DNA from: a virus | IMG/VR virus record: IMGVR_UViG_3300011116_000950 | Span: 1 to 25,711 of that record | DNA length: 25,711 bases | Direction: 5' to 3' (one strand) | Shown: in pieces, positions 9,589-23,679 of the stretch | How positions within the stretch are numbered: position 1 is the stretch's first letter | Layout: each line of letters opens with the position of its first letter | Made by a program: the position numbers and the translations under genes | The notes under the pieces: generated by a model | Told to the model about the DNA's origin: nothing | Databases searched by the model: none | The model's input: only the letters and a program-made list of their open reading frames with translations

Positions 9589-10329
9589 ATGAAAGATTAT
9601 TTACAAGATATATTGAAACATACTCATAATTTGGGTTTGTTTGAATTTATCAAAATTTCAGGAACCACTGAATCAACTAAAATTGATGGTTTAAGTGAAG
9701 ATAAAAATGCAATTTTGATGGCTACCACGCATACGCCTGTTGTTGAATTTGAAGGTATCTTTGGCATGCCTAATTTAGGCAAACTGGATATGTTGGTCAA
9801 ATGCAAAGAATATCAAGAAAATGCAGATATTCATTTGCAACGAGAATCACGCAATGGAGTTGATGTTCCAGTAAGTATTCATTTTATCAATGAAGCAAAA
9901 GATTTCAAAAATGAATATCGTTTAATGAATCATTCTGTGATTGAAGAAAAACTTAAAGCCATTAGTTTTAATGCTCCAAAATGGAACATAGAATTTAGTC
10001 CATCAATATCTGGCATTCAAAGAATGAATTTCCAAAGTAGTTTATTGAGTGAAGAAACAAATTTCACTTTAGAAATAGATAAGGGAAATCTAATCTGTAA
10101 ATTGGGCGACGCTGCAAATCATGCAGGACAATTTATCTTTGCTTCCAATGTTGCAGGAAAATTAGAATCTTCCATAGCATGGCCAATTAAGTATTTTTTA
10201 CCAATATTGAAACTCAATGATAATAGTAACGGTTTTAAAATTAAAATTAGTTCTGCTGGATTAATGGAATTAAGTGTTGATAGTGGATTAGCCGATTATA
10301 GTTATTATATTTTATCAGCGGCTAGATAA
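9589..10329 (+). CDS. 45: DNA polymerase sliding clamp (T4 gp45-like)
   Basis: The 246-residue protein has the size of T4 gp45 (228) and similar local patterns: an EFEGIFGMPNLGKLDMLV segment (about 51-68) matching the gp45 stretch after the first beta sheet, an interdomain region near 125-150, and a C terminus ending DYSYYILSAA, similar to the gp45 end. Clamps encircle DNA and tether the polymerase; T4 gp45 also activates late transcription. Composition is beta-rich without cysteine-rich motifs. It follows the polymerase region and overlaps dpdA as TAATG, so the clamp and the DNA modification enzyme are translationally coupled. The assignment rests on pattern resemblance plus context. Confidence 0.75.
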   Translation: MKDYLQDILKHTHNLGLFEFIKISGTTESTKIDGLSEDKNAILMATTHTPVVEFEGIFGMPNLGKLDMLVKCKEYQENADIHLQRESRNGVDVPVSIHFINEAKDFKNEYRLMNHSVIEEKLKAISFNAPKWNIEFSPSISGIQRMNFQSSLLSEETNFTLEIDKGNLICKLGDAANHAGQFIFASNVAGKLESSIAWPIKYFLPILKLNDNSNGFKIKISSAGLMELSVDSGLADYSYYILSAAR

Positions 10330-11843
10330 TGACTGAAGATCTAAGTAAAAAATTTGATGAACAAGGCTATGCTATATTTTTGCCGGCCATTTCAACATTT
10401 TACAATAATTATATTGCTAGACAGCGAGTAGGGCCATATGTAGAACAATCTAGATTTCCAAAAAGTTTCAATGGAGACATGGAAGCATTAAATTTTCTAG
10501 ATCCTATTAAAAGTAAATTTCATTACAAATACGGATTATATTCTGCAGGTCATGCTCAATTAAATATGGCAAGAACTAATGTTGAAGATGCTATGATTCA
10601 ACAGAGAGATCGAAAGAATACCGTAATTCTAGGTGATAGTGGTGGTTTCCAAATTGGTAAAGGCATTTTGAAATTTGATTGGAAGAAGTTTAAGACTCCA
10701 TCAACTGATAAAGTAATCTTAAATATTCTTGATTGGCTAGAAGAAACTGCCGATTGGAGTATGATTTTAGATGTTCCGGCCTGGGCTTCTAATCCATCGA
10801 ATAGTCCACGAACTGGATTGAAAAGTTTTCAAGATTGCTTAGATGCAACAGTTTATAATAATAATCTTTTTATCAAAAATCGAAAAGGTAAAACAAAATT
10901 TCTAAATGTTCTACAGGGAGATGATTGGGAAAAAGCAACGGCATGGTATGATGCAGTTAAATCAATGCCTTTTGAAGGCTGGGCAATGGGCAGTAAAAAT
11001 GCTAGTGATATGTATATCGCTTTGAAACGCATTATTATTTTACGAGATGAAAAATTATTAGACGAACGTAATTGGATGCATTTCTTAGGAACAGCACAAT
11101 TAGATTGGAGTGTCTATTTAACGGCCATTCAACGACAATTAAGAAAAACTGTAAATCCCAATATCAATTTAAGTTTTGATTGTGCAAGTCCTTTTATCGC
11201 AACGGCTAATGGTAGGATTTATACCGACACTGTTTTTAGTAAAAAGAAATTAACCATAAGAATGGATTTTGCTCCAGATAATAAATTATTGAAAAATAGT
11301 CAAATTCCTTTTCCTTGGGAAAGCGCAATTACAAAAGATATGACAATGGGAGATGTTTGTTATTATGGACCAACAGACATGAATAAAATTGGAAAAATTG
11401 GTAAGACTAGTTGGGATAGTTTTTCTTATGCATTGATGATGGGCCATAATGTTTATACTCATATTAAATCAGTTGAGAAGGCAAATCAACTTGCTGACAT
11501 TGAATATGTTACACATAAACCAGAATGGAAGCATTGGAGGAAACTAAAGGATAGTGATCGAAGTGATGACTATAGTGATTGGATACCTAGAAATTTATTA
11601 TATTTTAATGGGTTTGTTAAAGATTTATTCGAATCTGAGACTCCTATGGATATGCTAGATGAAGCCAGAGCATTTCTTGATAGTTGTGCCAATACTCGAT
11701 GGAGGAAAAGCAGTCATTTTGATAAATTCTTTGATACTGGTGAAACATCGGTAATCAATGATCCAGCAGAACTAGAACATAATGAAGATGCAATAGCTAA
11801 ATTGGAAGAATTGGAAAATTCAATAAAGGCAAAAAATGTCTAA
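10329..11843 (+). CDS. dpdA: DpdA-like DNA guanine transglycosylase (TGT family)
   Basis: This 504-residue protein has the tRNA-guanine transglycosylase active-site order: DSGGFQ (103-108, first catalytic Asp region), LDVP with Asp148, an LQGD loop (195-198, equivalent to VQGG), WAMGS (218-222), HFLG (251-254) and FDCASP with Asp284 at the position of the TGT nucleophile. It lacks the CxCxxC zinc cluster of bacterial Tgt and is longer, as in phage DpdA proteins that exchange guanine in DNA for a 7-deazaguanine. The window also contains folE, queE and a QueD-like gene, supporting a DNA role over a tRNA role. The ATG overlaps the clamp stop codon; the next gene overlaps its end by 8 bases. The exact base inserted cannot be told. 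Confidence 0.85.
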   Translation: MTEDLSKKFDEQGYAIFLPAISTFYNNYIARQRVGPYVEQSRFPKSFNGDMEALNFLDPIKSKFHYKYGLYSAGHAQLNMARTNVEDAMIQQRDRKNTVILGDSGGFQIGKGILKFDWKKFKTPSTDKVILNILDWLEETADWSMILDVPAWASNPSNSPRTGLKSFQDCLDATVYNNNLFIKNRKGKTKFLNVLQGDDWEKATAWYDAVKSMPFEGWAMGSKNASDMYIALKRIIILRDEKLLDERNWMHFLGTAQLDWSVYLTAIQRQLRKTVNPNINLSFDCASPFIATANGRIYTDTVFSKKKLTIRMDFAPDNKLLKNSQIPFPWESAITKDMTMGDVCYYGPTDMNKIGKIGKTSWDSFSYALMMGHNVYTHIKSVEKANQLADIEYVTHKPEWKHWRKLKDSDRSDDYSDWIPRNLLYFNGFVKDLFESETPMDMLDEARAFLDSCANTRWRKSSHFDKFFDTGETSVINDPAELEHNEDAIAKLEELENSIKAKNV

Positions 11844-12714
11844 AATTCTTATCGTTGGATTGGGTATTGGAAAATTATATTATGATATTCTTTCTAAAGA
11901 TCATGATATTATCACTGTAGATATTGATCCAAATAAAAATGCGGATTATCAAACCGTTGATTTATTAGATCAACGGTTTGATCTATCAATAATCTGTACT
12001 CCAAATTTTACCCATAAGGAATTGGCTTATAAATTAGCATTAATTAGTGACATGATTTTAATTGAAAAACCAGGATTAGAAACATCATCTGAATGGAAAA
12101 CATTGTTGGATACATTTCGAGATGTCAGGTTTATGATGTCCAAAAATAATCAATATCGTGATGAAATTGAACAAATGAAAATTTTATCAGCAACAGCACA
12201 AAAAATCGAAATTAATTGGAATAATTATGATAGGATACCATATCCTGGTAGTTGGTTCACGAATAAAAAATTGTCATGGGGTGGAGTTAGTCGAGATCTT
12301 ATACCACATCTTTTGAGCATATATATTAAATTATTCAAATATGATTTTCCATATGACCATGATCTTTTTAAAAAATGGTCATTATCTGATTTAAAGAACA
12401 CATCATATGGATCAATAAAAATAGATGGAATTTATGATGTTGATGATCATGCATATTTAAGTTTCAAACATAATGACAAAACCATATTTTTATCTGCAGA
12501 TTGGAAATCTAATGAATCTAATGACATTGCGATACATTTCTATAACGACCTAGGACATTTTGAAATCTCATTAGGATTGTGTCCTGAATATGCATATGAA
12601 AATATGATTAAAACCATGTTTCTAAATCAATATAATGATAATTTTTGGAACGAACAGAAACAAATTGATATATGGATACATGAAATTATCGAAAGATTAA
12701 TTTCATGGAAGTAA
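11836..12714 (+). CDS. Gfo/Idh/MocA-family NAD(P)-dependent oxidoreductase
   Basis: This 292-residue protein begins with a Rossmann motif (GLGIGK, residues 8-13), has an acidic end to strand 2 (VDID, 28-31), a CTPNFTH segment (54-60) and the family signature EKPG (77-80), followed by GGVSRDLIPHLLS (about 149-161), where the Asp and His match the active-site area of Gfo/Idh/MocA enzymes. These enzymes oxidise or reduce sugars, inositols and related polyols. It is slightly shorter than usual (330-360). It overlaps dpdA by 8 bases and the next dehydrogenase by 10 bases, so it is part of the same translation unit. A sugar or modified-base precursor is a reasonable but unproven substrate. Confidence 0.8.
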   Translation: MSKILIVGLGIGKLYYDILSKDHDIITVDIDPNKNADYQTVDLLDQRFDLSIICTPNFTHKELAYKLALISDMILIEKPGLETSSEWKTLLDTFRDVRFMMSKNNQYRDEIEQMKILSATAQKIEINWNNYDRIPYPGSWFTNKKLSWGGVSRDLIPHLLSIYIKLFKYDFPYDHDLFKKWSLSDLKNTSYGSIKIDGIYDVDDHAYLSFKHNDKTIFLSADWKSNESNDIAIHFYNDLGHFEISLGLCPEYAYENMIKTMFLNQYNDNFWNEQKQIDIWIHEIIERLISWK

Positions 12715-13616
12715 GAATATTACGAACTGACGGTACTGGTTCATTCATAGAAGATATTTGGAAAAAGCCAGATCATAATGATGATCAAATAGTTGTAAAA
12801 ACTATTATGACTGGTGTTTGTAGAAGTGATATTGATATGATGAATGGATCGTTCAAGAAATTACCAACACATATGATGGGACATGAAGGATTAGGCATAG
12901 TTCATAACATTGGTAAAAATATATTTGATGTTAAAATTGGTGATTATGTGGCGACACGTGGAGAACCAGCCTATGCAGATTTCTATAATTCAGGAAAAAA
13001 ACAATATATCAAAATAGACTATCCTGATCCAAAATTTATTATAGAACCAGTTGCATGTGGTATGAACATTTATCAACGTGTAAAATTAAATTCTAGATTC
13101 AATAAAAATACAATACGAGTGTTGGTATTGGGCAGTGGATTCATGTCATATATCATTAATTCTATATTTTTAAATGAATCTAAATATATAGGATATCAAG
13201 TATTTAATATTGGAAATCATAATAAAGATTTATTTCCCAACAGAATAGAAAACACAGATGGAAAATATGACATCGTAATTGATATAACATCAGATCCCAA
13301 ATGGATTGATTTGCCAATATATGAAGAAAATGCTATAATAGTAATTGCCTGTGAAAAACATCCATCAATAAAAACAGATTTCAGTAATCTATTATGGAAT
13401 AATTCACAAATCATATTACCAAGTCCTAGAGATGATAGGTTTCATGAATCTATGATATTATCAAAATTATTAATAGATAAGAATGTATTTGATAAATTAG
13501 ATCATTTTTGGTCTAAAGGATATAAACGAAACACTGAATGGAAGAAAGCATTCAATGATGCTAAAAATAGACCACAAGGATATAATCGTGGATATATAGA
13601 TTGGAGAGAAATATAA
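12705..13616 (+). CDS. Zinc-dependent alcohol dehydrogenase-like (MDR) protein
   Basis: This 303-residue medium-chain dehydrogenase-like protein keeps the catalytic zinc site (GVCRSDID with Cys39; GHEGLG with His60-Glu61), GDYVA (79-83) and EPVACGMN at the start of the cofactor domain. A Rossmann-like VLVLGSGFMSYI follows near 140-152. It lacks the four-Cys structural zinc lobe and is about 40 residues shorter than standard MDR enzymes, with a reduced nucleotide-binding half. It probably oxidises an alcohol or reduces an aldehyde. It overlaps the Gfo/Idh/MocA gene by 10 bases, and the next ATG overlaps its stop codon. Two consecutive oxidoreductases after dpdA suggest a joint pathway; that is inference. 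Confidence 0.75.
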   Translation: MEVRILRTDGTGSFIEDIWKKPDHNDDQIVVKTIMTGVCRSDIDMMNGSFKKLPTHMMGHEGLGIVHNIGKNIFDVKIGDYVATRGEPAYADFYNSGKKQYIKIDYPDPKFIIEPVACGMNIYQRVKLNSRFNKNTIRVLVLGSGFMSYIINSIFLNESKYIGYQVFNIGNHNKDLFPNRIENTDGKYDIVIDITSDPKWIDLPIYEENAIIVIACEKHPSIKTDFSNLLWNNSQIILPSPRDDRFHESMILSKLLIDKNVFDKLDHFWSKGYKRNTEWKKAFNDAKNRPQGYNRGYIDWREI

Positions 13617-13984
13617 TGAGAAAATTCTTAGAAACTATTGCCGTTGATACATCAGGATTTGATCCATATCTGATTATCACAATGAAAGATGAATCTGGAT
13701 CAAATACGGTCCTATTAAAAACCAAAATGGAACCAGATAATTCAGTTAAATCTAAATATTCATTAACTGAGCAAAAAAGAATAGATAGGATAAATCAACT
13801 ATTAATGGAACGCGGATTCGCAACAATGACAGAACCAGAATCTGATTTCTTAATTGATCCTAATGGTCTACGTTGGAATAAAATTGATACAAATACCGAG
13901 GATCTACAACGATTGGCTGGTTTTACTGTTGAAAAGAAAATAACATATTATGATGATTTAAAGGAAGAAAAGATTAATGACTAA
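13616..13984 (+). CDS. Unknown 122-residue protein in the dpdA operon
   Basis: I place the start at ATG 13616, overlapping the previous stop codon as TAATG with GGAGAG (13603-13608) at proper spacing; an in-frame TTG at 13601 overlaps that ribosome binding site. The 122-residue product has no recognised domain. Its N-terminal part is beta-rich (FDPYLIITMKDE...TVLLKTKM); a helical segment follows (about 45-65), then FLIDPNGLRWNKIDT and a C-terminal charged tail. It overlaps the QueD-like gene by 8 bases. The location suggests a part in the same pathway or simply cotranscription. Confidence 0.65.
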   Translation: MRKFLETIAVDTSGFDPYLIITMKDESGSNTVLLKTKMEPDNSVKSKYSLTEQKRIDRINQLLMERGFATMTEPESDFLIDPNGLRWNKIDTNTEDLQRLAGFTVEKKITYYDDLKEEKIND

Positions 13985-14351
13985 TTACATATGGGTTAAA
14001 TTTCAAAAAGAAGGAATTCATTGTTATCCCGCGGCTGCAATTGATCCTAATCTAGCAACTGGTGATTGGGATGATGTTAGTTTTTTGGCTAATAAACATC
14101 GACATATTTTTCATTTTAAGGTATATATTTCAATAGAACATTCTGATCGAAACATTGAATTCATACAATTCAAACGTTGGCTAGAACGGTTGTATGATAA
14201 TAAAACATTACAACTTGATCATAAGAGTTGTGAGATGATTGCAGAAGAACTGTATATACAAATCAATAAAAAATATCCAAATCGAATTATTAAAATTGAT
14301 GTGAGTGAAGACAATGAAAATGGATGTTTAATGGAATTTGGAATAAATTAA
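13977..14351 (+). CDS. QueD/PTPS-like T-fold protein
   Basis: This 124-residue protein aligns by eye with 6-carboxytetrahydropterin synthase (QueD): His15 in GIHCYPAA (first zinc His), HRH (41-43, zinc pair, equivalent to LHGH), EFIQFKRWLE (61-70, equivalent to IDFAELK), LDH (80-82, Asp/His of the active site), SCEMIAEELY (84-93) and SEDNENG with Glu111 (substrate-binding Glu). QueD turns dihydroneopterin triphosphate into CPH4, the step between FolE and QueE, both encoded in this window. The catalytic Cys that precedes the HGH motif in QueD is absent (Ala-Asn-Lys instead), so activity may differ. The start ATG overlaps the preceding gene by 8 bases. Other T-fold or unrelated phage proteins remain possible. 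Confidence 0.5.
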   Translation: MTNYIWVKFQKEGIHCYPAAAIDPNLATGDWDDVSFLANKHRHIFHFKVYISIEHSDRNIEFIQFKRWLERLYDNKTLQLDHKSCEMIAEELYIQINKKYPNRIIKIDVSEDNENGCLMEFGIN

Positions 14352-14399: not shown

Positions 14400-14501
14400 G
14401 GAAGACCACACGGTAGCTTAACTGGATAAAGCCGTTACAACGAGTTATCAGTTCGAATCTGATTCGTGGAAGAGGGTCGACACTTTTCAAAGGTCTTCCA
14501 C
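14400..14501 (+). ncRNA. tRNA-like element without anticodon arm; alternative stems
   Basis: A canonical D arm (TAGC at 14414-14417; stem GCTT 14416-14419 with AAGC 14429-14432) and a canonical T arm (stem ATCAG/CTGAT with loop TTCGAAT, 14447-14463) are joined by only 14 bases that cannot form an anticodon arm. CCAC (14406-14409) can pair with GTGG (14466-14469) as a short acceptor-like stem. An outer stem GGAAGACC (14400-14407) with GGTCTTCC (14492-14499) competes with GTGGAAGA (14466-14473) pairing TCTTCCAC (14494-14501). It may be a decayed tRNA, a tRNA mimic or a structured regulatory RNA. No complete tRNA can be drawn. Confidence 0.45.
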
Positions 14502-14591: not shown

Positions 14592-14798
14592 GTGAAGAGT
14601 GTAGTGAATAAGGTATTCGATGATCTTGATGAATACCGAAATTATTGTCGATTCGCGTATTTGAATGGACAAGATGGATTTACGTTCAATGAACGGGATC
14701 TATATCGGACTGATAGTCCGTGGGGAGTGATGAAGGGCCTAGTAGAAGTCACTCGACCCAAGTATCGGACGAATAAGAACTTTAATCGAAGGCGATAA
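14592..14798 (+). CDS. Unknown small protein, 68 residues, GTG start
   Basis: A GTG at 14592, with AAGGA about 11 bases upstream, opens a 68-residue frame; a second in-frame GTG at 14604 is an alternative. The product is acidic at the N terminus (VFDDLDEYRNYCRFAYLNG), aromatic in the middle and very basic at the end (RPKYRTNKNFNRRR). Its codons are less AT-rich than those of its neighbours, similar to the genes after 24800. It lies about 50 bases behind a strong sigma70-like promoter, so it is probably an early host-directed protein. The family is not recognised. Confidence 0.6.
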   Translation: MKSVVNKVFDDLDEYRNYCRFAYLNGQDGFTFNERDLYRTDSPWGVMKGLVEVTRPKYRTNKNFNRRR

Positions 14799-15133
14799 TA
14801 TGAAGACCTAAATTAAACTTTTAGAACATTTAAGATTTTGTTTTGGTTGTAATTTTATTAGGTACAGAATAATGCTCAAGGAATCGTAGCTAAGCTAATT
14901 AAAATTAATTAGTATATTATTTGGTTTTTGGTTTAATGATCTTAATGTTTGTAGAAATTATCCTCAATGAGGTATATGTGTTATGGTTTAGGTAATTAAA
15001 TTTTTTTAATTGTGTAATTTAAATTTTGGAAATTTGTTAAACCGTTAGTTGAAACTTGAGGTATATGTGTTATGGTTTAGGTAATTAAATTTTAATAATT
15101 ACTCATATTTTTGATAGAACCGTTGTTTAGCGT
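14799..15133 (+). other. AT-rich noncoding block between the small ORF and the 16-bp hairpin
   Basis: No convincing gene is present. The block holds an AT-rich hairpin (CTAATTA, loop AAAT, TAATTAG at 14895-14912) and a tandem repeat described separately. Short frames across it lack ribosome binding sites. Confidence 0.6.
14968..15128 (+). repeat. Tandem direct repeat, two units of about 75-90 bases
   Basis: A 37-base identical segment occurs at 14968-15004 and 15057-15093 (core TATGTGTTATGGTTTAGG). In each unit it leads into an AT-rich hairpin beginning GTAATTA: in copy 2 GTAATTA (15081-15087) pairs with TAATTAC (15096-15102); in copy 1 a similar stem forms with different bases. Both units then contain AACCGTT (about 15039-15046 and 15118-15124). 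This could be a duplicated small RNA or regulatory element. A weak TTGAAA-16-TATGGT promoter match lies at the start of copy 2. Confidence 0.6.
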
Positions 15134-15168
15134 GAAAGAGCTTAGATCTTTAAGATCTAAGCTCTTTC
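15134..15168. terminator. 16-bp perfect hairpin
   Basis: GAAAGAGCTTAGATCT (15134-15149) and its exact complement (15153-15168) are separated by three bases. There is no U-tract after it, so it may stop transcription weakly, protect RNA ends or be an RNase III site. A sigma70-like promoter starts 23 bases downstream. Confidence 0.5.
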
Positions 15169-15238: not shown

Positions 15239-16360
15239 ATGAAAATTTGGATAGTTGATTTGGAAAGTGTATCAACACGATATACATGTGAATGGAAAAA
15301 TCATATTCCATCATTAATTACAGAATTTTTAAAAAATAGTGGCGAATACAACAGTACGGTCGAAATAATTGATGGCCCATCTGATATTCCAAAATCTACG
15401 ACTCCTGGTGCATTTTTAAATTTTGGTGGAACCAATATCTATAAAAGTGCTCAAATGGAAAAATTAAGCCGAGCCTTCACTCTCGGTGAAATTAAAAATG
15501 GTGATCATATTCTGTTCACCGATGCCTGGCATCCTGGCGTGATTCAGGTCAAATATATGTCAGAACTATTAAATATTCGAATCAAATTACATGGCATTTG
15601 GCATGCAGGTAGTTATGATCCACAGGATTTCTTAGGACGTTTGATAGGAGATAAACCATGGGTACGACATGCTGAAAAAAGTTTTTACGAATGTTATGAT
15701 CATAATTATTATGCAACATATTTTCATAAAAAACTTTTTGCCGAAACCTTATTAGATTTCACTCCCTCGAAACAAACATTTGATTTAAAAATGATTCAAA
15801 CCGGATTACCATTTGAATATTTGAAACCATTGTTATCACCACTTGGAGAGTCTACCAAGAAAAAGAACTTGGTACTTTTCCCACATCGTATAGCTCCAGA
15901 AAAACAAATAGATATTTTCAATGATTTATCTAAAGAAATTCCTGAATTGGAATGGGTGGTATGTCAATCTAATGCCTTATCAAAAAATGAATATCATCAG
16001 ATGTTATCTGAAGCAAAAATTATATTCAGTGCCAATCTTCAGGAAACATTAGGAATTAGTATGATGGAAGGAATGTTAGTTGGAGCTCATCCTATGGTTC
16101 CAGATCGACTGAGCTATCATGAAATGTATCCAGATACATACAAATATCCATCGATTTGGACTGAAAACTTTGAATTGTATCAAAAACATAAAATCAAACT
16201 CATAACTCATATTAGAAATGTAATCCATCATTATAAATTTGATACCATAATTGATGACTCATCTGCAATATTTTCTAAATATTTTACTAGCAATAATCTA
16301 TTATTCAATCTAAAGAAACAAGTAATTCATATTGAAACTAACAAGGAAATCAATGAATAA
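15239..16360 (+). CDS. GT-B glycosyltransferase (GT4/GT1-like)
   Basis: This 373-residue protein has the GT-B layout: an N-terminal Rossmann-like half with GDHILFTDAWHPG (about 88-100) and HGIWHAGSYDP, then a C-terminal half starting LVLFPHRIAPEKQ (about 219-231) with the typical AKIIFSANLQETLGISMMEGMLVG segment containing the E-x7-E motif that binds the nucleotide sugar. It has no membrane segment, so it acts in the cytoplasm. Phage glycosyltransferases often decorate DNA bases or virion and host polysaccharides. It starts a run that includes folE and queE and overlaps folE by 8 bases, which makes a link to base modification plausible but unproven. Confidence 0.75.
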   Translation: MKIWIVDLESVSTRYTCEWKNHIPSLITEFLKNSGEYNSTVEIIDGPSDIPKSTTPGAFLNFGGTNIYKSAQMEKLSRAFTLGEIKNGDHILFTDAWHPGVIQVKYMSELLNIRIKLHGIWHAGSYDPQDFLGRLIGDKPWVRHAEKSFYECYDHNYYATYFHKKLFAETLLDFTPSKQTFDLKMIQTGLPFEYLKPLLSPLGESTKKKNLVLFPHRIAPEKQIDIFNDLSKEIPELEWVVCQSNALSKNEYHQMLSEAKIIFSANLQETLGISMMEGMLVGAHPMVPDRLSYHEMYPDTYKYPSIWTENFELYQKHKIKLITHIRNVIHHYKFDTIIDDSSAIFSKYFTSNNLLFNLKKQVIHIETNKEINE

Positions 16361-17048
16361 AATTTCAACAACAATTAAAGAACGGTTAAAATCAAAGGGA
16401 TTAAAATATTATGCTAACAGCAATATTAGCAATTGTATTAAAAAGGGAGAGTTAACAAAATTAGAAAAGGAAGTTACTGAAGCATTTTATGGTGTATTGG
16501 ATAGCTTGGTTATTGATCAAAAGAATGATCCAAATAGCAAGGATACCGCTAGGAGATTAGCTAAAATGTATATTCATGAAACTATGAAAGGACGTTACTA
16601 CCCTGGTCCAGAAATAACAAGTTTTCCTAATGATGATAAACATCGAGATCATCCATATGATCAATTATTAGTTGTCAGATCGGAAATTAAGAGCATGTGT
16701 AGCCATCATCATCAACCAGTAATTGGAGTTGCCTATATTGGAATTATACCTGGTGATACAGTATTAGGATTAAGCAAATATATTAGAATTGCTCAACATC
16801 ATTCACGACGAGGTACACTACAAGAAGAATTATGTGAAGATATCGCCGCATCCGTGGAGAATTTAACTAAGGCACGTGGGGTTGGAGTCTATATTGAAGC
16901 AGAACATGGTTGTTGCACAAATCGTGGTATAAATGCTCATTCAAGTTTGACTCAAACGACAGTTTTAAAGGGTTGTATGAAGGATGATCCTACATGTAAA
17001 ACTGAATTTATGGGCAATATCCATTTGCAAAAGCTGAGAAGTATTTGA
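16353..17048 (+). CDS. folE: GTP cyclohydrolase I
   Basis: The enzyme converts GTP to 7,8-dihydroneopterin triphosphate, the first step of both folate and 7-deazaguanine synthesis. I chose ATG 16353, preceded by AAGGA (16343-16347), over the in-frame TTG at 16332; the product is then 231 residues (E. coli FolE 222). The zinc and active-site residues are visible: MCSHHHQ (Cys116, His119 region), GLSKYIRI (139-146), the QEEL helix and EHGCCTNRG (Cys187/188). The gene overlaps the glycosyltransferase by 8 bases and the next gene as TGATG. In a phage with dpdA and queE this supports 7-deazaguanine supply. Confidence 0.94.
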   Translation: MNKISTTIKERLKSKGLKYYANSNISNCIKKGELTKLEKEVTEAFYGVLDSLVIDQKNDPNSKDTARRLAKMYIHETMKGRYYPGPEITSFPNDDKHRDHPYDQLLVVRSEIKSMCSHHHQPVIGVAYIGIIPGDTVLGLSKYIRIAQHHSRRGTLQEELCEDIAASVENLTKARGVGVYIEAEHGCCTNRGINAHSSLTQTTVLKGCMKDDPTCKTEFMGNIHLQKLRSI

Positions 17049-17371
17049 TGCCAGACTATTATATCACACAATCTACCTTGCCTATATCAAATATGTCTAT
17101 AGGACCAATCGTAAATACTCCAACTGGTATATATATTACTAGTTCGGGAGGTCCAGGAGGAATTGGAGTTATTGGAAGCAGTGGTGGTTCTGGTTGGCAT
17201 GATCCTGTTCAAGAACAATTACATAATTTAACCAACAGAATCCTTGAATTAGAATATGAAATTAGATTACATGACAAATATCCAGCATTAAAAGAAGCAT
17301 GGGAACAATACCAGGTGTTGAAAATATTATGTTTGTCTGATGAACAAACTGAAGGAAATTCAGGTGTCTAA
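17048..17371 (+). CDS. Unknown Gly-rich/coiled-coil protein, 107 residues
   Basis: ATG 17048 overlaps the folE stop codon (TGATG); an in-frame TTG just before is less likely. The first half is Gly/Ser/Ile-rich and low in complexity (about residues 28-54), and the second half is a helical segment (EQLHNLTNRILELEYEIRL) followed by KYPALKEAWEQYQVLKIL. I recall proteins with this ending in marine T4-like phages without known function. The layout suggests a flexible linker plus oligomerising helix, perhaps virion- or complex-associated. It overlaps the phosphoribosyltransferase gene by about 8 bases. Confidence 0.65.
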   Translation: MPDYYITQSTLPISNMSIGPIVNTPTGIYITSSGGPGGIGVIGSSGGSGWHDPVQEQLHNLTNRILELEYEIRLHDKYPALKEAWEQYQVLKILCLSDEQTEGNSGV

Positions 17372-17813
17372 TATCAAATATACTTGGATAGATTTTGATA
17401 AGGACTGTGATTCATTGGAAAAACAAATCAAAAAAAGTTTATTTGTTCCATCTATAATATGTGGATTAATATCTGGAGGATTACCACTTGCAACAAAATT
17501 AAGCAATACATTAAAAAAGCCGTTGAATACCACATTGATAGATATTAAACATGGTATCGCTCGTCGCGACTTTTGGATATTAGATGCATTGGATGATGAT
17601 AAAAATATTCTATTTGTGAACGATGTTTCTGTACACGGATCAACAATAAAATGGATACTTGGACAATATACTATTAAAAAAAGAAATAAAATTAGTCAGG
17701 TTAGATTTACTTCATTATTTCAATTGCCCAACGAAACTTATAAAAGTGATTTCTATGCTCGAGAAAAAAAGGAGAACGAATGTATTCTATTTCCATGGGA
17801 AGTAAAACAATGA
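17364..17813 (+). CDS. Phosphoribosyltransferase-like protein
   Basis: The likely start is GTG 17364, with AAGGA (17352-17356) 7 bases upstream; an ATG at 17340 in the same frame lies 5' of that site. The 149-residue product has a type I phosphoribosyltransferase core: IICGLISGG (31-39, PPi loop area) and ILFVNDVSVHGSTI (82-95), which matches the PRPP-binding motif (hydrophobic stretch, two acidic or Asn-Asp residues, then Gly-Ser-Thr). A flexible lid probably covers 62-72 (KHGIARRD). It would join a base to PRPP or run in reverse. It sits between folE and queE, so a role in salvage or in a modified nucleotide is attractive but unproven. Confidence 0.7.
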   Translation: MSNIKYTWIDFDKDCDSLEKQIKKSLFVPSIICGLISGGLPLATKLSNTLKKPLNTTLIDIKHGIARRDFWILDALDDDKNILFVNDVSVHGSTIKWILGQYTIKKRNKISQVRFTSLFQLPNETYKSDFYAREKKENECILFPWEVKQ

Positions 17814-18145: not shown

Positions 18146-18587
18146 TATAAATTATATGTTAGATTGTTTAATTTTAGGTGATTCAATTGCGATTGGAACT
18201 CATGTTCTATTTAAAGAATGTGAATTATATGCAAAAACTAGCATCACATCATCACAATGGAACCAACGATGGACCGTTCAGAAACTAGATGCTAAGACAG
18301 TAATCATAAGTTTAGGCACAAATGATCATAGGAATATTAAATCTAGAGATGAATTAATAACTATGAGATCACGTGTTAATGCAGAACGAGTATTTTGGAT
18401 TTTGCCAGCTGCAACTGCTCGAGGAAGTGGGCTATCTGTTGTTGAAATTCAAGAAATAATTAAAGATATTGCAGATACAAATGACGATTATATTATAGAA
18501 ATAAAAAGTTTAGATATAGATAAAACTCATCCAAGCTGGACTGGATATCATATGATTGCCGATGAAATTAAGGAAAAACTAAATTAA
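18120..18587 (+). CDS. SGNH/GDSL-family hydrolase
   Basis: The family hydrolyses esters or removes acyl groups using a Ser-His-Asp triad. In the 155 residues, block I is LILGDSIAIG (nucleophile Ser22), block III is ISLGTND (oxyanion Asn68) and block V is DKTHPSWTG (Asp134, His137). No signal peptide is present, so it is cytoplasmic or in the virion. The start is TTG 18120 with AGGAG (18111-18115) 4 bases upstream; ATG 18156 lacks a ribosome binding site and would sit just before block I. It overlaps the preceding gene by 26 bases and touches queE (TAATG). The substrate is unknown; a deacylase acting on a modified base or on host polysaccharide is possible. Confidence 0.75.
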   Translation: MTNHYQQYNINYMLDCLILGDSIAIGTHVLFKECELYAKTSITSSQWNQRWTVQKLDAKTVIISLGTNDHRNIKSRDELITMRSRVNAERVFWILPAATARGSGLSVVEIQEIIKDIADTNDDYIIEIKSLDIDKTHPSWTGYHMIADEIKEKLN

Positions 18588-19447
18588 TGTTCGGAAAAAA
18601 TGAAGTGGTCGGAAAAAAATATTTTGAAAATGCTGGTGACAAATTATTTGTTACTTCAGTATTCATGACACTCCAAGGAGAAGGCCCATATCGTGGAGAG
18701 CCAGCAGTATTCGTTAGATTAACGAAATGCAATTTATCTTGTTATTTCTGTGATACCTGGTTTGATTCAGGTGATTGGTTATCATATGATCAACTTATCG
18801 AAAAAATTCATAATGCAATTATGATTGCATATCCTAAAGGAATTCCAACTTGGTTAATTAACTCTAATGATAAAAAAATTCATTGTGGTCTAGTAATCAC
18901 TGGTGGTGAGCCAATGTTACAAAAGAATTTGACCACATTTTTATATAAGGCAGACGAAACATTCAATTGGGTTCAAATTGAATCTAATGGAACCATAATG
19001 CAGGATATTCCATCAACAACAACATTAGTTTGTAGTCCTAAATGTAGTGAAAAATTAGGAAAACCTATTAAATATTTACAACCAAATGAACAAGTTTTAC
19101 AAAGAGCATCATGTTTAAAATTCGTAATGTCTGCTGATCAAAATAGTCCATATAGTCAAATCCCACAATGGGCATTAGATTGGAAAGAATCAACTGGGAA
19201 ACAAATATTCATAAGTCCTATGAACATTTATAATAAAGAACCAGAACGAAATAAGACCATTAAATCTAATTCAAATGCAACTACATTAGAACAACGAAGT
19301 ATTGATGATGAAGTTATAAGCTTTTGGACTCCTGGATTACTTAATATGGATCAAAATCAAATAAATCATACATATGCTGCAAAATATTGTTTAGAAAATG
19401 GATGCATTTATAACTTACAAGTTCATCTATATGCTGGGCTAGCTTAA
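18587..19447 (+). CDS. queE: 7-carboxy-7-deazaguanine synthase (radical SAM)
   Basis: QueE converts 6-carboxytetrahydropterin to 7-carboxy-7-deazaguanine. The 286-residue protein shows the substrate loop QGEGPYRGEPAVFVRL (30-45), the radical-SAM cluster CNLSCYFC (Cys48, Cys52, Cys55; CxxxCxxC) followed by DTWFD as in QueE, and TGGEP (105-109) for SAM binding. A VQIESNG strand and a KFVMS segment follow. It is longer than E. coli QueE (223), mainly through inserts after 70 and near 215-235. ATG 18587 overlaps the SGNH stop codon. With folE and dpdA it provides strong evidence for 7-deazaguanine chemistry. Confidence 0.93.
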   Translation: MFGKNEVVGKKYFENAGDKLFVTSVFMTLQGEGPYRGEPAVFVRLTKCNLSCYFCDTWFDSGDWLSYDQLIEKIHNAIMIAYPKGIPTWLINSNDKKIHCGLVITGGEPMLQKNLTTFLYKADETFNWVQIESNGTIMQDIPSTTTLVCSPKCSEKLGKPIKYLQPNEQVLQRASCLKFVMSADQNSPYSQIPQWALDWKESTGKQIFISPMNIYNKEPERNKTIKSNSNATTLEQRSIDDEVISFWTPGLLNMDQNQINHTYAAKYCLENGCIYNLQVHLYAGLA

Positions 19448-22878: not shown

Positions 22879-23679
22879 ATGCTACCAATGAATCATCTTG
22901 ACGATAATGCAAATCATATCTTTATTGATACTCCATATGGTCCAGGATATTGGGTACCTAAGGGAGATTATGTCGTCAATACCGTGAGCAGAGGTGCAAA
23001 GAATACGGGATATAATAATTTTCTTAAATTTATGAAACCTAAAGCTCGAACAGTATGTGATATTGGTGCAAACATAGGTGAAATAACCTGGGCGTTGTCA
23101 CAATTTTCACAACAGGTTCATGCATTTGAACCCACAGTAAATACCTTCCAATTACTAAAGAAAAATGTAGAACAAAATAATTTAAAAAATGTTTCTATAT
23201 ATGACAAGGGCGTTGGAGCAAAACATGAGATTGCCCATATAGCATTGAATGGAAATACCTGTGGCGCCAATGCTCGAATACAAGATGTCACAAAGACAAA
23301 ACACCAAACAGAGATAATGACCATTATTCCATTAGATTCATTAAATTTATCTGATGTTGATATTATTAAAATAGATGTTGAAGGATATGAATTGGATGTA
23401 TTGCAAGGTGCAGAACAAACCATATTAAAAGATAAACCAATAATTCAATTGGAAGTTTATGAACCAGCATTAAAACGAGCAAAACGTGATATTGCAGATG
23501 TATATTCATGGATGTTGGCCAGAGATTTTATTCCATATTATGTGAAATTTCGTAAAATTGTTCCAGAGTCCAATGAATATATAAAGGTACCAAAATGTAT
23601 AGAACGATTCTTTATACATAAATCAATTTTGGTACCAACTGAAGTGCCCAAAAATATTAGAATTATATCCAAAATATAG
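22879..23679 (+). CDS. FkbM-family SAM-dependent methyltransferase
   Basis: This 266-residue protein has the class I motif I DIGANIGE (61-68), HAFEP (81-85, acidic end of strand 2), QNNLKNVSIY and the FkbM signature DIIKIDVEGYELDVLQGAE (about 161-179). FkbM enzymes methylate hydroxyl groups, often on sugars. The start ATG 22879 has AGGA (22866-22869) 9 bases upstream. It stands alone between a 43-base gap and the promoter at 23690. With a glycosyltransferase in the same window, a methylated sugar on phage DNA, virion or host glycan is possible; the target is unknown. Confidence 0.85.
   Translation: MLPMNHLDDNANHIFIDTPYGPGYWVPKGDYVVNTVSRGAKNTGYNNFLKFMKPKARTVCDIGANIGEITWALSQFSQQVHAFEPTVNTFQLLKKNVEQNNLKNVSIYDKGVGAKHEIAHIALNGNTCGANARIQDVTKTKHQTEIMTIIPLDSLNLSDVDIIKIDVEGYELDVLQGAEQTILKDKPIIQLEVYEPALKRAKRDIADVYSWMLARDFIPYYVKFRKIVPESNEYIKVPKCIERFFIHKSILVPTEVPKNIRIISKI

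Follow-up and report, generated by a model that had tools for sequence, protein, structure and literature searches.

What are two oxidoreductase genes doing beside a gene for DNA base exchange in a viral genome? The question is raised by the 25.7-kb virus record IMGVR_UViG_3300011116_000950 (25,711 nucleotides, 31% GC), a genome fragment; the whole of this record is called the window below. In it, a gene for a Gfo/Idh/MocA oxidoreductase (gfo) and one for a shortened zinc MDR dehydrogenase (mdr), together called the pair, follow dpdA, which codes for a DpdA-type DNA guanine transglycosylase. A first-pass annotation had described the two genes as overlapping each other and dpdA by 8–10 bases; the coordinates bear out the overlaps, and the Pfam matches the families. 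The open reading frames (ORFs), coordinates and overlaps near dpdA, re-read from the window sequence, are as first reported: the dpdA-like and gfo genes share 8 bp, gfo and mdr share 10 bp. We conclude, with little doubt, that gfo and mdr are part of a 7-deazaguanine module built around dpdA. We lean slightly towards a sugar as the compound on which the pair works; the narrower idea, that by a chemistry that we infer the pair alters a sugar already carried by, or meant for, a glycosylated 7-deazaguanine, appears to us evenly balanced.

Scans of IMG/VR with the single window Gfo or MDR protein gave no match, and two-row alignments were needed as queries; profile scans with Gfo and MDR alone as queries then gave at least 119 loci. 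The match lists are redundant, and the frequencies given here are those of the sample, not of nature. Hidden Markov models begun from the window genes and applied to the 122 sequences of the pair search identified gfo in 120, mdr in 119, dpdA in 111, the QueD-like gene in 104 and the glycosyltransferase (GT) gene in 100. The commonest order was pol-clamp-dpdA-gfo-mdr-(fam4)-queD2-GT-folE-queE, and several other arrangements hold the same genes together. The order dpdA-gfo-mdr recurs, as such or rearranged, in more than 100 contigs; with conservation of this extent chance is excluded. Among the matches listed, annotated phages with good homologues of both enzymes were 11 Wroclawvirus records only (Pseudomonas jumbo phages; PA5oct, MIJ3, Paride, Cassandra and others). 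The final set is larger: 135 of its loci have both gfo and mdr, five have one of them alone, and local dpdA is missing from 13 loci with gfo or mdr. We also looked for phages with the pair and without dpdA, which would have spoken against a link with the inserted base, and found none: among the checked loci without local dpdA, Cassandra and the locus L058 have dpdA elsewhere in the record, the rest being contigs of 5 to 49 kb.

One could suppose that the pair has an auxiliary metabolic or surface-sugar function, acting on host polysaccharide or on a nucleotide sugar for virion or envelope decoration, and that it sits in the module by chance. Comparison of Gfo patterns with one genome per species (84,980 species) produced two relatives only: one in a phage-like contig binned in an archaeal metagenome-assembled genome (MAG), the other in a Bacteroidetes MAG, where a Gfo-MDR pair (L284:397-2264) adjoins an amylase-like gene and glycosyltransferases, neighbours that would suit such a function. 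In Wroclawvirus, too, the adjacent Gfo and MDR genes lie about 26 kb from dpdA, the dpdA, GT, QueD-like and QueE genes being close together in one block as in the window. Against these observations stand three others: no phage record with the pair is shown to lack dpdA, the pair was regained many times at the same place, and the neighbouring family fam4 covaries with it. We regard a surface-sugar function as improbable. A cellular origin of Gfo was rejected, as the 84,980-species scan gave only the two relatives, one of them phage-like, and so was a general phage metabolic gene, the MDR matches in cyanophages and Listeria phages being weak and partial.

A scan of IMG/VR anchored on the GT gave at least 600 rows; therefore, the module is common. 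The best 80 loci were analyzed, and in the 59 that had context (>6 kb upstream) dpdA was present without exception and the pair was present in 17. None of eighty dpdA-anchored loci contained the pair within the available sequence; those with enough downstream sequence had the same gene order minus the pair. The core module was seen in the cultured phages ACP17 (with a DpdA2-type protein in place of this dpdA), BUCT-ZZ01, X1, Phosso and Wroclawvirus, and four cultured phages carry it without the pair. Mapped on a polymerase tree, the pair appears or disappears at least 12 times (16 changes on the tree of 89 lineages). Thus, the idea of the first-pass annotation that the pair tailors the base inserted by DpdA, perhaps with the GT, stood in part: the tie to the dpdA module and to the GT held, but the pair is an optional add-on to the module, not a base-making step. 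As the pair-less module is common and present in cultured phages, the GT, rather than the pair, marks the modification; restriction of the GT to pair-carrying phages was rejected, since the pair needs 19 changes on the GT tree. The module genes of the window, with one gene of context on the 5′ side of dpdA, are as follows.

9589..10329, + strand: sliding-clamp-like gene, 5′ of dpdA (phrog_12062, E=1e-35; the gene of phage Phosso at the same position is annotated as sliding clamp)
10329..11843, + strand: DpdA-type DNA guanine transglycosylase (DSGGFQ motif, invariant Asp, hhalign to DpdA2)
11836..12714, + strand: Gfo/Idh/MocA oxidoreductase, first gene of the pair (PF01408, E=1e-5, above the cut-off)
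12705..13616, + strand: zinc MDR dehydrogenase, shortened, second gene of the pair (PF08240, E=8e-12)
13616..13984, + strand: unknown ORF, unrelated to fam4, at the site where relatives have fam4
13977..14351, + strand: QueD-like paralogue with a three-histidine site (PTPS, E=0.038, weak; phrog_17812, E=4e-33)
15239..16360, + strand: GT4-type glycosyltransferase (Glycos_transf_1, E=0.013, weak; confident GT-B/GT4 model)
16353..17048, + strand: GTP cyclohydrolase I, FolE (PF01227, E=3e-39)
17340..17813, + strand: phosphoribosyltransferase-like gene, a common neighbour in the module (Pribosyltran, E=8e-5, below the cut-off; in 60 of 87 distinct lineages)
18587..19447, + strand: QueE-like radical SAM enzyme, 7-carboxy-7-deazaguanine synthase (phrog_2076, E=4e-52; TIGR04322, E=2e-18, below the cut-off of the model)

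The genes around the pair include those for DNA polymerase, the clamp-like protein, FolE, the phosphoribosyltransferase-like protein, QueE and an exonuclease.

Are the two enzymes likely to be active, and on what? The window Gfo has both the GLGIG glycine motif and the EKP lysine in its N-terminal NAD-binding Rossmann domain. This lysine, K78, is kept in 135 of 137 homologues; D154 and H158 of the C-terminal domain (Asp-x3-His) are present in 136 of the 137, the remaining one being a truncated contig end. The best solved match of the Gfo profile was DgpA (7xr9, E=4e-11), an enzyme that oxidises glycosides at C3 (PMC11239390). Judged by sequence, the window Gfo is closest to glycoside C3-oxidoreductases, which agrees with the link to sugar-type families made in the first-pass annotation. 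In the MDR the zinc-site residues C39, H60, E61 and E114 are kept in nearly all homologues and the GSGF motif is conserved; Pfam matches none of the second half and the PDB matches cover the first half only. Working one after the other, two dehydrogenases could turn a sugar into its epimer with no net redox change.

Wroclawvirus departs from this pattern. Its Gfo and MDR (L001:13099-14867) are without the catalytic residues, the rest of the sequence being well kept, the MDR C-terminus in particular; in Cassandra the MDR has C39S and H60C, and the Gfo has neither the glycine motif nor EKP. Both enzymes look dead in these phages. Papers on the Wroclawvirus phages MIJ3, Callisto, PA5oct and Paride held no nucleoside data in the passages found. 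That Wroclawvirus retains both genes after loss of the glycine motif and EKP lysine from Gfo and of two zinc ligands from MDR could mean that the pair is now non-catalytic, a binding or scaffold part of a modification complex. The same residues are near-invariant in the other homologues across 30–50% identity, and we consider a scaffold role highly improbable.

Which base is being made can be narrowed down from the rest of the module, whose core consists of DpdA, the QueD-like protein, the GT4 enzyme, FolE, QueE and, usually, fam4. Searches of DpdA by Pfam, PHROG or PDB sequence gave no usable match. The assignment was made because of the DSGGFQ motif, which together with D103, D148 and D284 is invariant in 38 aligned homologues, and because of profile similarity to nt-1 DpdA2 (hhalign to DpdA2 of Vibrio phage nt-1, ACP17, BUCT-ZZ01 and X1: E=3.5e-7, probability 93, 191 columns); DpdA2 is the type named in the study tying DpdA to DNA modification (PMC6884629). 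Among 87 distinct lineages folE was found in 75 and queE in 63. QueC was missing from 40 of the 41 whole records of relatives, the complete Cassandra genome included; in the positive control, nt-1, it was found. Without QueC, FolE and QueE together with a phage or host QueD would lead to 7-carboxy-7-deazaguanine, unless a host QueC is used. A true QueD is additionally present in ACP17 and some contigs. As for the QueD-like protein, named so in the first-pass annotation, the name suits its zinc site, since the zinc-binding histidines H15, H41 and H43 are invariant in 39 homologues, and does not suit its catalytic centre: of the catalytic residues at the positions known from E. coli QueD, neither a Cys ahead of H41 nor an Asp-His pair is conserved. 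The protein is a diverged paralogue in which the catalytic residues of QueD cannot be recognised. In Xanthomonas phage X1 a gene annotated as PAPS-reductase-family lies beside FolE in the module (L292:3197-3730).

With this route in mind, one can ask whether the pair acts on the base's own 7-substituent (a carboxylate-derived carbonyl, alcohol or amine) rather than on a sugar, the GT being a separate step. The pair is tightly linked and adjacent to dpdA, MDR enzymes reduce many aldehydes, and the pair fits the dpdA tree (10 changes) better than the tree of the GT (19). The module, on the other hand, has no carboxylate-activating enzyme and no QueC, and the best Gfo matches are sugar and glycoside dehydrogenases. 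This explanation seems to us unlikely, though it deserves more weight than the other alternatives.

The predicted structure of the GT (pLDDT 91.9) matches retaining GT4 enzymes over the full length (BshA, E=4e-10; Z up to 25, residues 1–366), and E269 and E277 of the EX7E motif are invariant among homologues. We infer that the GT would glycosylate either the base linked to DpdA or one of its precursors. A pterin acceptor, which a structural match to biopterin glucosyltransferases had brought up, was not adopted, as GT4 enzymes generally score alike. Many acceptors are known for GT4 enzymes, and in several of these genomes there is a gene for a protein of the thymidylate-synthase family, among which could be a pyrimidine hydroxymethylase; one may then imagine that the module does make a 7-deazaguanine and that the GT and the pair act elsewhere, on a protein or a different DNA base. 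The GT occurs with dpdA in every locus with context, and it is found as well in ACP17, BUCT-ZZ01 and X1, genomes without any thymidylate-synthase-family gene; a target of this kind is, in our opinion, improbable. Other sugar enzymes (UGD, DegT, epimerase) are repeatedly found in the module. Replacement of other sugar enzymes by the pair was rejected: we saw no significant association either way with SDR, DegT or UGD genes.

A further indication came from fam4, a new conserved family of ~174 amino acids detected by clustering of neighbours, with genes that usually overlap the end of mdr (for example, L001:14870-15376 and L010:9643-10167). There was no Pfam match to fam4, and no known fold could be assigned (best Foldseek E=0.02; best Z 7.0, to STAS proteins, and 5.9 to QueE, all within the common chance range). 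Among the four pair-less cultured phages fam4 was identified in ACP17 only. The window has no fam4 at the usual place; the ORF at 13616-13984 had no homologue among the first 121 loci and was rejected as a diverged fam4 (hhalign probability 0.1).

For one set of 89 lineages, the number of pair changes was 10 on the tree of dpdA, 16 on that of polymerase and 19 on that of the GT; for fam4 (85 sequences) it was 2. The tree of 117 fam4 sequences also needs 2 changes, versus 38.8 on shuffling. At pair-bearing loci the fam4 motif is GTS or GTT with W (112 of 115 readable for at least one motif; 13 were unreadable), and at loci without the pair it is GAN with F; about 13 of 13 independent contrasts between subtype and pair agree (p about 2e-4). 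Four loci (L268, L242, L221 and L253) have pair-type fam4 and no local pair. The L268 contig carries the pair (the locus L058 mentioned above) ~105 kb from the fam4 locus; for L242 a distant Gfo was predicted from the fam4 subtype and then found, about 100 kb off. No Gfo was found in L221 and L253, contigs of 26 and 46 kb, nor in any of eight contigs of 80–197 kb picked from loci without the pair. In Wroclawvirus, with its seemingly dead pair, fam4 is of the GAN/F subtype. Because of the distant Gfo of L268 and L242 and the GAN/F fam4 of Wroclawvirus, adjacency alone is no explanation for the covariation, from which one can predict, by sequence, the variant that a given phage makes.

In the reading that we favour, gfo and mdr act as a single functional unit, and the steps could then run in the following order. 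Phage FolE and QueE, with phage or host QueD, would produce 7-carboxy-7-deazaguanine, and DpdA would swap guanine in DNA for this compound or a derivative. The GT4 enzyme would put a sugar on the base or its side chain, or on the base precursor. Gfo with NAD would oxidise a hydroxyl of the sugar, probably at C3 as DgpA does, and the zinc MDR would reduce or re-oxidise the intermediate, leaving an epimerised or keto sugar. Finally, fam4 may act on the product of Gfo and MDR, which would explain why the most conserved fam4 motif changes with the pair. Taken as a whole, the picture of a widespread phage hypermodification is offered tentatively: a 7-deazaguanine made from CDG without QueC, to which a dedicated GT4 enzyme adds a sugar, and which is served by a swappable sugar-changing Gfo-MDR cassette with a co-adapted fam4 working on its product. 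In a literature search, with most subscription papers outside it, we came across no glycosylated 7-deazaguanine described from phage DNA; the 7-deazaguanines known from phage DNA carry, to our knowledge, small substituents.

Several observations weigh against sugar remodelling on the base. Wroclawvirus has kept a pair devoid of catalytic residues, and the Bacteroidetes MAG with the pair has no dpdA of this type. Most module copies are without the pair, so the modification is independent of it; nor is the pair associated with UGD, DegT or epimerase genes. The GT could act on another target. As to fam4, L268 and L242 may be one lineage, and part of the signal could be simple co-transfer of neighbours.

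Some other elements of the window are worth mentioning. Between the QueD-like gene and the GT, positions 14407-14471 are tRNA-like (Rfam tRNA, 26.7 bits versus a gathering score of 29), possibly a decayed or unusual tRNA; ARAGORN called no tRNA in the window. Of 69 representative loci, 24 contain homologues of a 68-amino-acid ORF with a GTG start (14592-14798). The non-coding gap before the GT holds two 44-nt direct repeats, 95% identical and 89 bases apart (14968-15011 and 15057-15100), and directly upstream of the GT gene there is a perfect 17-nt inverted repeat with a 1-nt loop (15134-15168), which could be a terminator or regulatory element. At 22879-23679 lies a gene for an FkbM-family methyltransferase (E=2e-29); none of the first 121 loci has a homologue of it.

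How does the module compare with known systems? It resembles DpdA2 phage 7-deazaguanine modification of the Vibrio phage nt-1 type (Hutinet et al. 2019, PMC6884629) in its DpdA-type transglycosylase, FolE, QueE, QueD paralogue and DNA-modifying context. It differs from that type in being without QueC and in having a conserved GT4, fam4 and the optional Gfo-MDR. The window MDR shares the GroES-like domain and catalytic zinc residues with zinc MDR alcohol and polyol dehydrogenases (threonine, benzyl-alcohol, xylitol), but it is about 300 amino acids long against about 350 and its PDB matches cover the N-terminal part only. With BshA and other retaining GT4 enzymes the GT shares the GT-B fold over the full length and the EX7E motif; unlike them, it is strictly linked to dpdA, and identity is ~10%. 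Cui et al. in 2023 reportedly added four more 7-deazaguanines, with CDG-, DG- and preQ1-derived phage bases made via DpdL, DpdM and DpdN. A QueC-less path ending at 7-carboxy-7-deazaguanine would fit dCDG or dDG; we know of no glycosyltransferase and no oxidoreductase pair in these routes. DgpA of gut bacteria (7xr9), the closest solved relative of Gfo by profile, works on aglycone-attached sugars (PMC11239390); sequence similarity is low, and its partners DgpB and DgpC cleave the glycoside, whereas the partner of Gfo here is a zinc MDR. Finally, in the T4 DNA glucosyltransferase system, as would be the case here, a phage glycosyltransferase puts a sugar on a modified DNA base; the base and the route are different, and T4 glucosyltransferases are not among the structural matches listed for the GT. 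If true, a sugar-bearing 7-deazaguanine would link this system to T4-style bulky DNA camouflage.

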